64,000 nucleotides of DNA from Acinetobacter pittii (GTDB lineage Bacteria; Pseudomonadota; Gammaproteobacteria; Pseudomonadales; Moraxellaceae), in the NCBI RefSeq assembly GCF_034064985.1, contig NZ_CP139249.1:124001-188000 (forward strand), read 5' to 3'. The position numbers and the translations under genes were made by a program. Below the pieces are notes generated by a model. The model was not told the DNA's origin, searched no databases, and saw only the letters and a program-made list of their open reading frames with translations. Of the stretch, positions 22,948-45,491 are shown in pieces (position 1 is the first letter of the stretch; each line of letters begins with the position of its first letter).

Positions 22948-23298
22948 TTAGGCTTGAATATTTTGATAGGTGGTTTCATCAAAACCTACAATGAAACCTT
23001 GTGAAGTTTTTAAAACAGGTCTTTTAATCAAACTTGGTTGAGCAATGAGTGCTTCAATCAGGTGATCTTCACTGCTTAGAGCACGATTTTGTTCTTCTTC
23101 TGAAAGCTTGCGCCAAGTCGTTCCTTTTTTGTTGAGAACGGTATCTTTTCCAATTTCTTTTAACCAGATTTTTAAAGTATCTGCATCAATGCCTTGTTTT
23201 TTATAATCATGAAAATCATAGTTAAGCCCTTTAGCCTGTAAGGCATCAAATGCTTTTTTCATTGAGTTACAGTTTTTAATTCCATAAATTTTTAACAT
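22948..23298 (-). CDS. ArsC/Spx-family reductase, YffB type
   Basis: A 116-residue thioredoxin-fold protein: MLKIYGIKNCNSMKKAFDALQAKGLNYDFHDYKKQGID, the WLKEIGKDTVLNKKGTTWRKL segment and LIKRPVLKTSQGFIVGF. The CNSMKKA motif has one cysteine as in YffB/ArsC-like proteins, which may act as glutathione-dependent reductases; true arsenate reduction is not implied. The ATG at 23298 matches the family start; the frame extends to a GTG at 23331 without support. Confidence 0.85.
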   Translation of the reverse strand: MLKIYGIKNCNSMKKAFDALQAKGLNYDFHDYKKQGIDADTLKIWLKEIGKDTVLNKKGTTWRKLSEEEQNRALSSEDHLIEALIAQPSLIKRPVLKTSQGFIVGFDETTYQNIQA

Positions 23299-23504
23299 TT
23301 TATCGGACCATGTCAAAAAGAGAGAGCACACAGCCTAACCCAAAATGCTTTTAATCACTACTTTATACCGATACTTTTAAAACAAATGAAAATTAATGAT
23401 TAATCGAAAGAGAAATGTCATGTTATTGTCATAAGACAAGGTAATAATGAGCTTAATAAGAAGAAGTTAAAACTAAAAGAACTTAGCGCAAAATAAAAGA
23501 CAGA

Positions 23505-23544
23505 AAAGAGAAAACCCGCATTTAATCATCCTGATCATGCGGGT
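23505..23544 (-). terminator. Terminator of the GGA-rich sRNA
   Basis: Arms 23537-23544 and 23514-23521 (ACCCGCAT/ATGCGGGT read on the minus strand), then a T-rich tail at 23505-23513. The loop itself holds the ATCA-GGA-TGAT mini-hairpin. Confidence 0.8.
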
Positions 23545-23655
23545 CTCATTTCAACGTCCATTGTCACATCCTTGCAAATAAACTTATCATAAGTTTATTT
23601 TATCTTCCTACGGCGTCCTATCCTTTTGCGTCATCCTGACTGCTTCCCTGTGCCG
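23505..23655 (-). ncRNA. Probable CsrA/RsmA-titrating small RNA (CsrB/RsmZ type)
   Basis: No protein frame fits this gap, but the minus strand carries eight GGA motifs in about 150 bases: AGGGAAG, CAGGATG, AAGGATAGGACG (two), TAGGAAG, AAGGATG, TGGACG and CAGGATG. At least two sit in the loop of a perfect small hairpin (GTCA-GGA-TGAC and ATCA-GGA-TGAT), exactly the presentation CsrA/RsmA binds. An A+T-rich 10-bp hairpin (AATAAACTTA/TAAGTTTATT) lies in the middle, and a rho-independent terminator (ACCCGCAT/ATGCGGGT then TTTTCTCTTTTCT) closes the RNA. A -10-like TTATAG at 23661-23666 places the 5' end near 23655. Such RNAs are normally activated by GacA/UvrY and sequester CsrA. Ends are estimates; homology to a named family was not tested. 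Confidence 0.72.
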
Positions 23656-23730
23656 TGGGGCTATAATGCCGTTAAAGCTGTGTAAGAAAAATACTCAAAA
23701 ACGACATATGCTGTAAGCGAAAACGACAAT

Positions 23731-23754
23731 GTAAGTGAACGGTTGTTCACTTAC
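23731..23754. promoter_or_regulatory. 24-bp perfect palindromic site between crc and the sRNA
   Basis: Arms GTAAGTGAAC and GTTCACTTAC around GGTT. The TGTAAG...CTTAC halves resemble the GacA/UvrY upstream element (TGTAAG-N6-CTTACA) but with a wider spacing. It lies about 75-100 bases upstream of the estimated sRNA start and overlaps the crc stop codon. It may activate the sRNA, or be a weak crc terminator stem (no T run follows). Confidence 0.45.
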
Positions 23755-24575
23755 TCTTGAATTTTATAGTCGATAATAACGGGCGCATGGTCGCTAAACC
23801 ATTGATCTTTATAAACCCAAGCATTAATTGTACGTGCTTTCCAGTCTGGCGAGCATGCATGGTAGTCAATACGCCACCCTACATTTTTTGCACGAGCTTG
23901 ACCGCGATTTGACCACCATGAATACAGTTCCGCTTCTGTTCTTACAACACGGAAAGTATCGACATAGCCAAGTTCATCATAAATATGGTCAAGCCAAGCA
24001 CGTTCATGTGGTAAACAACCAGATGATTTCTGGTTACCTGACCAGTTTTTGATATCAATACGTTTATGAACAATGTTGTAGTCACCACAAATGATGACTG
24101 ACTTGTTTTCATCACGCCATTGTTTCAGGATTTTTGCGTATTCACCTAAAAATAAATCTTTACGTGCTTGCGCTTCTTCACCACTTGAGCCCGAAGGTAA
24201 GTATAATGATGCAATATGTACCGGATGTGACAAACCTAAATCGAATTCCGCAGAAATAAAGCGGCCTTGACTGTCAGCTAACTCAAACCCTAAACCATCT
24301 TTAACAGAGACAAAGGGTAGGCGGCTATATATTGCAGTCCCCGCATAACCTGCACGCTCTGCTGGAAAGAGATGGGTATGCCATCCTTCGGGTCTAAATT
24401 TTTCAGTCCATTGTTCATGGGTAATGCGGCTTTCCTGCATGCATACGACATCGGCATCTGATTGTTCTAACCATTCAAGTAAGCCTTTCGTTACTGAAGA
24501 ACGTAAGCCATTTACGTTAATGGAAACGACTCGAAGAATTTTTACATCACTTGGATACTGATCCTTTGGTATCAT
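23751..24575 (-). CDS. crc: Exonuclease III-family protein, probable catabolite repression control protein Crc
   Basis: A 274-residue endonuclease/exonuclease/phosphatase-fold protein: [22 protein letters not shown] at the start, [55 protein letters not shown] and VGWRIDYH. Its place next to pyrE is that of crc in Pseudomonas, where Crc works with Hfq in carbon catabolite repression. Unlike Pseudomonas Crc, it keeps the ExoIII catalytic residues (CMQESR with E48, ICGDYN, and SDHAP near the end), so AP-endonuclease/3'-exonuclease activity is possible. The start is taken as ATG 24575; a TTG at 24593 is also in frame. It could equally be annotated as xth/exodeoxyribonuclease III; orthology to crc rests on synteny and overall similarity. 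Confidence 0.82.
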
Positions 24576-24613
24576 GCGAAAATTTAACCTCAATTGTGAA
24601 TTTGGAGCACCTC

Positions 24614-44710: not shown

Positions 44711-44721
44711 GAGCACATACT

Positions 44722-44880
44722 TCATTGGGGAGTAGCCGCTATTCATTTCTAAATGAATAGGTGATGATCAACATAATTGTTCAACAGAACATGGTCATCA
44801 TAGCTTAAACGTCTCATCGTTTCCGAGTTGGCAAGACCTTTGATTTACCACTCTGCAGATATTTGGCTAGCAGGAGAGGT
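44722..44880 (+). ncRNA. yybP-ykoY-type manganese riboswitch
   Basis: The leader carries the hallmark TTGGGGAGTAGCC at its 5' side and the GAGTTGGCAAGACC element at its 3' side, with a perfect hairpin CTATTCATTT/AAATGAATAG and a second paired region (GATGATCA ... TGGTCATC) between. This is the pattern of the yybP-ykoY class, which senses Mn2+ and often precedes GDT1/UPF0016 or MntP exporters. GGCTAGCAGGAGAGG downstream can pair with the GTAGCC of the leader, which may gate the ribosome binding site. Exact ends are approximate. Confidence 0.85.
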
Positions 44881-44885
44881 AGGTC

Positions 44886-45491
44886 ATGGGCATTTATGCT
44901 AGCCAGAGAAACGACATGCAAGAATTTCTGATTTCTACTTCAATTGTTGCCCTCGCTGAAATGGGCGATAAAACCCAATTATTGGCCCTTTTACTGTCTG
45001 CACGTTTCCGTAAGCCAATCCCTATTCTTATTGCGATTCTTTTAGCGACTCTAATTAATCATGGTATTTCTGCTGTACTTGGACAGTGGATTACGACCGT
45101 GTTGAGCCCCGAAATCTTAGTCTGGGTTCTTGCAGCTGGTTTCATTGGTATGGCGTTCTGGATGCTTATTCCAGATAAGCTCGATGATGAAACAGATAGT
45201 ATTAATAGATGGCAAAAGTTTGGTGTTTTTGGCGCAACCTTTATTCTATTTTTCTTGGCTGAAATTGGCGATAAAACCCAAATAGCAACAGTCGCTTTAG
45301 CTGCACGTTACGACAGCATCTTTTGGGTGATGTTAGGTACAACCTTAGGAATGATGATTGCTAATGCACCTGCTGTATTTATTGGTAATAAATTGGCTGA
45401 ACGTTTATCTATCTCGCTCATTCATAAAATTGGTGCTGCTATTTTCTTAATTGTAGGTATCTCTACTTTAGTACAGCATTATTTCTTTTAA
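44886..45491 (+). CDS. TMEM165/GDT1 (UPF0016) family cation exporter, probable Mn2+ efflux
   Basis: A 201-residue, six-helix membrane protein with two copies of the family motif: ALAEMGDKTQLLALLL and FLAEIGDKTQIATVALAARY, arising from an internal duplication. Members such as MneA export manganese; the Mn2+-type riboswitch in the leader strongly supports that function here. The ATG at 44886 has AGGAG and AGAGG upstream; ATG 44916 (MQEFLIS) is an alternative that fits the family start better. A bidirectional terminator follows. Confidence 0.9.
   Translation: MGIYASQRNDMQEFLISTSIVALAEMGDKTQLLALLLSARFRKPIPILIAILLATLINHGISAVLGQWITTVLSPEILVWVLAAGFIGMAFWMLIPDKLDDETDSINRWQKFGVFGATFILFFLAEIGDKTQIATVALAARYDSIFWVMLGTTLGMMIANAPAVFIGNKLAERLSISLIHKIGAAIFLIVGISTLVQHYFF

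Follow-up and report, generated by a model that had tools for sequence, protein, structure and literature searches.

An independent small RNA gene of about 148 nt lies on the minus strand, at approximately 23656 to 23509, of the window, the whole 64-kb stretch of Acinetobacter pittii DNA that we analyzed. It occupies the gap between an ExoIII-family gene, which we take to be the gene called crc in Acinetobacter, and a gene encoding an ArsC/Spx-like reductase. Both ends of the RNA are predictions from sequence. Read along the minus strand, the locus contains the following features.

23751 to 24593, minus strand: ExoIII-family gene, the upstream neighbor of the RNA (TIGR00633, 226 bits; cut-off 99)
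23731 to 23754, no strand assigned: inverted repeat GTAAGTGAAC..GTTCACTTAC, overlapping the stop codon of the crc-called gene
23509 to 23656, minus strand: small RNA, with a predicted 5' end at 23656 (an invariant A) and a 3' end in the T-rich tail near 23509 to 23505
23610 to 23656, minus strand: 5' closing stem, ACGGC (23656 to 23652) with GCCGU (23614 to 23610), surrounding GGA motifs 1 to 4
23630 to 23640, minus strand: hairpin GUCA-GGA-UGAC with GGA in the loop, from folding and column-pair counts
23576 to 23600, minus strand: A/U-rich spacer hairpin that has no GGA; its structure is conserved, its sequence little
23505 to 23544, minus strand: rho-independent terminator with a CsrA-type site, comprising a stem (23544 to 23514) and then the T-rich tail
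22948 to 23298, minus strand: ArsC/Spx-like reductase gene, the downstream neighbor (PF03960, 64.9 bits; TIGR01617, 91.1 bits)

A preliminary description had assigned the whole interval from 23505 to 23760 to a CsrB/RsmZ-like RNA. The RNA does lie within this interval, but the upper end, 23754 to 23731, is the inverted repeat of the neighboring gene and falls outside it. This repeat is probably the terminator of the crc-called gene. A 31-nt near-copy (91%) of the inverted-repeat region is present elsewhere in one genome (G044). At a distance from the locus, the plus strand of the window carries a yybP-ykoY manganese riboswitch (44715 to 44900; RF00080, 60.6 bits against a gathering score of 45).

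Folded from its predicted start at 23656, the RNA reaches -36.6 kcal/mol (z -4.0), and none of 200 shuffled sequences folded equally well. The predicted structure consists of the ACGGC/GCCGU stem closing around a GGA-loop hairpin, the A/U spacer hairpin, a weak hairpin at GGA 7 and a terminator tipped with GGA. The preliminary description had noticed at least two hairpins that display GGA in their loops, and folding likewise predicts two, at 23640 to 23630 and, as AUCA-GGA-UGAU, at the terminator tip (23535 to 23525). Its rho-independent terminator is also borne out: although a simple terminator scan did not list it, folding makes it evident and its stem is conserved.

The same description had pointed to eight GGA motifs on the minus strand in about 150 bases, a number that we recover between 23647 and 23529. 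Across both strands of the window, 23491 to 23685 on the minus strand is the sole stretch with eight GGA per 157 nt, against a mean of 1.26. Measured against shuffles of the same 148 nt, eight compares with a mean of 5.0 when dinucleotides are kept (P = 0.043) and of 4.1 when single bases are shuffled (P = 0.023). Because the count is only mildly unusual for the composition of the RNA, motif density alone is weak evidence, and it is conservation that decides.

Conservation in Acinetobacter and diverged homologues

Searched as DNA, the stretch 23500 to 23760 matches 140 of the 149 Acinetobacter genomes. In the fetched flanks, the same-strand upstream gene accompanies the RNA at 139 of these 140 loci, the downstream gene at 138 and both at 137; these numbers derive from 141 rows that include a duplicate of the window's own locus, taken to be one of the complete rows. 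Among 46 named loci, the closest to the window is that of A. pittii CIP 70.29, with 95.3% identity over 8 kb. Motif conservation was counted on the alignment of the 140 loci, which comprise 139 unique sequences; a duplicate of the window's own locus (L002) and a 31-nt match elsewhere (L142) were removed before the GGA and column counts. On the minus strand, each motif starting at its higher coordinate, the counts are as follows.

23645 to 23647, minus strand: GGA 1, kept in 139 of 139 sequences
23634 to 23636, minus strand: GGA 2, in a hairpin loop, 139 of 139; mean predicted probability of being unpaired 0.88
23621 to 23623, minus strand: GGA 3, 138 of 139
23616 to 23618, minus strand: GGA 4, 139 of 139
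23606 to 23608, minus strand: GGA 5, 139 of 139
23569 to 23571, minus strand: GGA 6, within GCAAGGAUGU, 138 of 139
23557 to 23559, minus strand: GGA 7, in a weak hairpin, 138 of 139
23529 to 23531, minus strand: GGA 8, in the apical loop of the terminator hairpin, 139 of 139; mean probability of being unpaired 0.99

Conservation of the motifs across Acinetobacter had been proposed as a test of the idea, and each of them is kept in 138 or 139 of the 139 sequences. Every one of the 122 unique Acinetobacter cores carries 8 to 10 GGA, and the mean predicted probability of being unpaired lies between 0.65 and 0.99 at each site. The sequence GCAAGGAUGU around GGA 6 resembles what we take to be the CsrA selection consensus.

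Over 3000 pairs sampled from the 140 loci, the two parts of the RNA body show mean pairwise identities of 0.87 and 0.92, and the -10 box one of 0.88. The value is 0.67 in an upstream element, 0.52 between that element and the -10 box, and 0.41 both just upstream of the element and past the terminator. By this measure, the RNA body is strongly constrained as a unit of about 148 nt.

Alignments were made of 99 of the 122 unique Acinetobacter cores (A1, with MAFFT), of 32 cores (A2) and of 39 matches (A4). In A1, the five helices are 93.6% paired and contain 31 cells with two-sided changes against 7.0 in shuffles, a value reached in none of 500; further pair types were not above shuffles (11 against 10.6; 248 of 500). 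With the diverged homologues included (39 sequences), two-sided changes occur at 14 of the 24 pairs and fill 65 cells, against 13.4 in shuffles, and none of 500 shuffles was as high on any of five measures, on an alignment that had been fitted to the structure.

Individual helices differ in how they are supported. The terminator stem is paired in 99.9% of cells across the 99 sequences, with two-sided changes in five of its seven pairs across genera, and the closing stem shows a two-sided change from G-C to A-U in 4 of the 99 and 7 of the 39 sequences. The outer column pair of the 23630 to 23640 hairpin (22/34) is UA in 57 of the 99 sequences and carries two-sided changes in 26, a one-sided change in 1, unpaired bases in 9 and gaps in 6; the window's own sequence lacks this outer pair. 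Genus g12 has a GCA/UGC-type stem at the equivalent position. The spacer hairpin forms at least five pairs in all 99 sequences (mean z -3.4 against single-base shuffles), with a mean pairwise identity of just 0.57: its structure is kept and its sequence is free. Support is weakest for the stem at GGA 7, which is 72.9% paired in the 99 sequences.

Homologues were sought with a covariance model built from 32 Acinetobacter sequences (R1) and a wider model (R2). Among the candidates scored, which for R1 were the best 150 of 2026, the A. pittii genome itself yields one copy at E <= 1 by R1 and one by R2. R1 matches at least 99 of 249 genomes of the family at E <= 0.1, in five of its 16 genera. One of these is g9, whose match (G211: L268, L304) was rejected as a homologue because it contains a single GGA. 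R2 adds genera g5 (E 1.5e-7) and g7 (E 0.025); the g7 match was accepted because it has 12 GGA and a palindrome matching 12 of 12 positions of TGTAAG-N6-CTTACA, which we take to be the GacA box motif. Diverged homologues are present in five other genera of the family, and they keep their GGA motifs, seven columns being occupied in 34 to 39 of 39 rows and the eighth split over two neighboring columns (12 and 25).

Copy number and genomic position vary among these relatives. At least four copies are present in a g8 genome (G155), at least two, in tandem, in a g12 genome (G159) and at least three in G032. One g8 genome and four g10 genomes share the Acinetobacter arrangement, with a same-strand copy directly behind the crc relative. 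In four g12 genomes (L284, L285, L286, L287), the position behind crc holds a diverged, GGA-poor sequence with a GacA-like box (10 to 11 of 12), and fuller copies lie elsewhere; decay after duplication is a possible origin of the poorer sequence. Linkage of the RNA to crc is conserved, extending to two other genera, and copies away from crc exist as well. A g5 genome (G152; L302, 1378 to 1629) carries a 252-nt relative with 16 GGA, convergent with csrA, whose GacA-like box (10 of 12, at -73) is seen once the real start is used.

Applied with stricter filters to 293 genomes of the order, R2 gave three matches at E <= 0.01. Two of them are Acinetobacter, and the third (G425) was rejected as a weak 25.5-bit match without a GacA-like box; under these filters, a reach of the RNA beyond the family is not supported. 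Among nine weaker R2 candidates, a box of at least 10 matches is present in five (L303, L305, L307, L308, L309), as well as in L302 from its real start, and is absent in three (L300, L304, L311).

Nine genomes of the genus gave no DNA match, and three of them (G030, G032, G076) carry diverged copies. For the other six (G014, G031, G097, G131, G143, G144), no credible copy was present among the candidates scored, the model matches in G144 (E 0.385) and G031 (E 0.52) not being counted as copies. G030, an incomplete and divergent genome, contains further GGA-bearing candidates in L303 and L308, with GacA-like boxes of 11 and 12 of 12.

Promoter, GacA box and regulatory proteins

Two conserved elements precede the predicted start of the RNA.

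23663 to 23668, minus strand: -10 box, CATTAT in 120 of the 140 loci; the G before it, at 23669, is invariant (140 of 140)
23701 to 23717, minus strand: upstream element CTTACA-N5-TGTCGT, a right GacA-box-like half-site with a second conserved box

The -10-like box TTATAG of the preliminary description is present, but the conserved form is CATTAT at 23668 to 23663, which overlaps it. A scan for sigma-70-type promoters listed none at the 23656 start. In the upstream element, CTTACA is exact in 72 and TGTCGT in 60 of the 140 loci, whereas the A and C of CTTAC and both G of TG-T/A-CG are invariant (140 of 140).

Relatives outside this set of loci have a fuller promoter element. A palindrome resembling TGTAAG-N6-CTTACA precedes all 16 diverged copies examined, with 10 to 11 of 12 matches, at -73 or -74 from the RNA start; L224, which has no upstream DNA, L268 and L284 were excluded from this count. 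Among 800 single-base shuffles scored at spacings of 5 to 7, none reached 11 matches and 19 reached 10. In the 140 Acinetobacter promoters, by contrast, the N6 palindrome scores as shuffles do (mean 7.46 against 7.43). With spacings of 5 to 7 allowed, 22 of the 140 score at least 10, against 2.6% of shuffles; 16 of these boxes lie at -41 or -43 and five at the ancestral place.

Taken separately, the two halves of the palindrome have fared differently. The right half-site, at -61 or -62, keeps 4 to 6 of 6 matches in all 140 Acinetobacter loci, and the left half-site at N6 averages 1.0 of 6, below the control spacings (1.59). At a spacing of 7, the left half-site has 4 to 5 of 6 matches in 18 of the 140 loci, and some Acinetobacter species may keep a stretched GacA box of this form. 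A second GacA-like match, TTTGAG..CTTACA with a spacing of 7, is located at about 23699 to 23681 in the window's own locus (at -43, 10 of 12) and recurs with a score of 10 in 13 of the 140 loci. Their promoters strongly suggest that GacA controls the RNA in the related genera. Since mainly the right half-site survives in Acinetobacter, the case for GacA control there is drawn from these relatives, by analogy with which such control is likely.

The genome encodes one CsrA, which scores above two NCBIfam CsrA cut-offs and is nearly identical over 57 residues to a solved CsrA. Its GacA relative, the best of 19 matches, has UvrY/SirA/GacA as its best NCBIfam family and scores 267.8 bits against an equivalog cut-off of 280; a BarA/GacS-type kinase, the best of 36 matches, scores 564 bits against an NCBIfam equivalog cut-off of 890. 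csrA is present in all 31 genomes checked, including the six without a credible copy of the RNA. In the literature, csrA of A. baumannii is described as essential on rich media, and CsrA as needed for desiccation resistance and for growth on amino acids. According to PMC8567240, csrA has been deleted in A. baumannii ATCC 19606, so "essential" here is strain- or medium-dependent. Adaptive evolution of A. baylyi recurrently produced mutations in csrA, hfq and rnd, and the mutated sRNAs named in the accessible text of that study are AbsR28 and one at recD/ACIAD0400 (PMC11426457).

A candidate CsrA-sequestering RNA and its alternatives

It is very probable that this RNA is a CsrA-sequestering sRNA of the CsrB/RsmX/Y/Z functional class. 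It has many GGA motifs in hairpin loops or single strands, a conserved secondary structure in which the helix around GGA 7 is weakly supported and, judged by sequence alone, its own promoter and terminator in an intergenic region, with -10 box and terminator conserved. Its host has CsrA and relatives of GacS and GacA, the latter two below equivalog cut-offs. The CsrA/RsmA-titrating architecture that the preliminary description recognized is thereby strengthened: GGA motifs, stems and locus are conserved through Acinetobacter, and relatives have GacA-box-like promoters.

In the mechanism that we propose, a non-coding RNA would be transcribed independently, its start lying close to 23656 and its promoter having a good -10 box and no clear -35. 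The element 45 to 61 nt before the start would be a descendant of the GacA box, and phosphorylated GacA, signaled by GacS, the likely activator. Two of the GGA sites sit in tight hairpin loops and most of the others in accessible stretches; they would bind CsrA dimers, so that the RNA would draw the cell's single CsrA away from the mRNAs that it targets. We infer that the RNA is transcribed, where exactly its ends lie, that it binds and sequesters CsrA, and that GacA activates it in Acinetobacter.

The alternative that survives best also describes a real CsrA sponge, one that in Acinetobacter answers to another regulator than GacA, its palindrome having decayed to a half-site. The poor left half-site (1.0 of 6 against 1.59 in controls) beside a right half with 4 to 6 of 6 matches in all 140 loci speaks for it, as does the conserved TG-T/A-CG box. 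On the other hand, relatives of GacA and GacS are retained, the right half-site still stands at its ancestral distance, and the left half at spacing 7 (4 to 5 of 6 in 18 of 140 loci) may preserve a stretched box in some species. We regard this reading as unlikely, though of some weight; it differs from the preferred explanation in the promoter step alone, and therefore our confidences in the two overlap. A more elaborate form of rewired control strikes us as speculative and quite improbable: the ancestral palindrome would have decayed to a half-site plus the TGTCGT box and would take a different input, and the CsrA site at the terminator tip would influence termination or decay of CsrA's own antagonist. 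If it were true, a different input would drive the genome's sole RNA of its family.

A base-pairing, Hfq-type trans-acting sRNA, in which GGA would be anti-Shine-Dalgarno-like or incidental, is very unlikely. Purine-rich single-stranded stretches beside a good terminator would fit sRNAs in general, but every GGA is conserved within a covarying frame of stems, the longest variable part keeps its structure alone, and relatives carry GacA-box-like promoters. Two RNA interactome studies of A. baumannii mention neither CsrB, RsmZ nor GacA in their main texts, a result that is neutral for this reading.

We give scarcely any credence to the view that CsrA acts on this RNA in cis, the RNA being either the leader or attenuator at the 5' side of the arsC-like gene or a product of the upstream gene's 3' UTR. 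It would account for the order of all three features on one strand at 137 of 140 loci. However, the RNA has its own conserved -10 box and strong terminator, about 210 nt separate that terminator from the arsC-like start, and there are homologues at sites not linked to crc, one genome having several and another a tandem pair; the g5 homologue adjoins csrA.

The weakest alternative is tied to the identity of the upstream neighbor. Compared with its nearest solved structures, the crc-called protein scores 256 bits against a Neisseria exodeoxyribonuclease and 211 bits against P. aeruginosa Crc. Its GDYN and SDHAP correspond to GDWN and SDHAP in the Neisseria enzyme and to GSLY and SQHAP in P. aeruginosa Crc. 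Residues of the GDYN/SDHAP type are, we assume, catalytic in nucleases, and the crc-called protein may be an active AP endonuclease. Repeats of AANAANAA, the Hfq/Crc motif, characterize CrcZ-type decoys. That the RNA is such a decoy for Hfq/Crc is close to negligible as a possibility, even though the crc-called gene adjoins it on the same strand at 139 of 140 loci: AANAANAA occurs 0 times in this RNA, is absent from 123 of 140 cores and occurs once in 15 and twice in 2, the conserved motif is GGA rather than A-rich repeats, the crc neighbor keeps its nuclease-type residues, and the g7 genome G154 has a related RNA though its best crc match is only 30% identical. For A. baylyi Crc, a role in catabolite repression is reported in PMC10269061, and we leave the name crc undisputed. 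The preliminary description had attached significance to the position beside Crc, as bringing two global post-transcriptional systems together. This significance is weakened: because the neighbor has nuclease-type residues that P. aeruginosa Crc lacks, being "beside Crc" carries little weight, and the RNA is also found away from crc. At the level of sequence, two linked global post-transcriptional systems are without support.

If the preferred reading, a CsrA-sequestering RNA, is right, a single defined gene that nearly all sampled species retain provides a candidate CsrA antagonist that can be deleted and assayed. The family model reaches five other genera and displays changes of promoter and of copy number within one sRNA family.

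Comparison with known systems

The search with Rfam models that the preliminary description had proposed did not place the RNA in a known family, the locus having no match at gathering to CsrB, RsmX, RsmY or PrrB_RsmZ. For RsmX (RF02144), the locus scores 19.2 bits against a gathering score of 56. It is 15th of the 27 rsmX matches at E <= 10 in the genome, and weak matches occur in 11 of 14 control genomes; we reject membership, as its score is that of the genome background. CsrB, CsrC, RsmY and PrrB_RsmZ have no match at gathering in the window and none among the matches listed for 23350 to 23800 at E up to 10, where there is one weaker overlapping match of the same clan besides. Of five diverged loci, only that of g7 had an Rfam match with E <= 0.1; the family was RsmY and the score 28.2 bits, half of the 57 that gathering requires.

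Predictions of Csr RNAs in Acinetobacter exist. In the available text, PMC5568370 (Table 2) lists Csr sRNAs predicted in strain ADP1 at ACIAD0018/0019 and ACIAD2750/2751 and mentions earlier predictions in ADP1 by Kulkarni 2006, PMC7366521 (Table 1) has a row [RsmX, RsmY, RsmZ] for A. baumannii that cites Kulkarni 2006, and a figure legend of PMC12442408 names "a CsrB-like small RNA" for A. baylyi. The RNAs predicted in ADP1 and A. baumannii share genus and class with the RNA described here, and the two ADP1 loci of 2017 bear other gene numbers. As far as the available text extends, none of the published Acinetobacter Csr/Rsm predictions is placed at this gap, and the literature searched neither locates or tests a CsrA-binding RNA in Acinetobacter nor names one at this locus. 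Our RNA may be a rediscovery of an unvalidated prediction of 2006. The terms csrA, csrB, rsmZ and crc are absent from the main texts, as available, of PMC5320573 (Weiss 2016) and PMC11472050 (Hamrock 2024), and the sRNA tables of these studies may already include the transcript as a numbered entry.

To CrcZ, the sRNA tied to the Crc system of Pseudomonas, the RNA is linked by the name crc alone; motif and partner differ. CsrB and CsrC of enterobacteria titrate CsrA through repeated GGA at about 18 to 22 sites. The Acinetobacter RNA has the same repeated-GGA, CsrA-titrating design, but it is much shorter and has eight GGA. RsmX, RsmY and RsmZ of Pseudomonas are short RNAs with a GacA-type promoter, several GGA in loops and a rho-independent terminator. 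A palindrome upstream of rsmX/Y/Z is mentioned as a potential GacA site in the available text of PMC2375449. It is these RNAs (Rfam clan CL00106) that ours resembles in its short length, hairpin-loop GGA and terminator; of a GacA-type promoter, the Acinetobacter loci have mainly the right half-site and the relatives a full box. It differs from them in lacking sequence membership, in having one copy by both R1 and R2 among the candidates scored, and in bearing a GGA site in the loop of its terminator.
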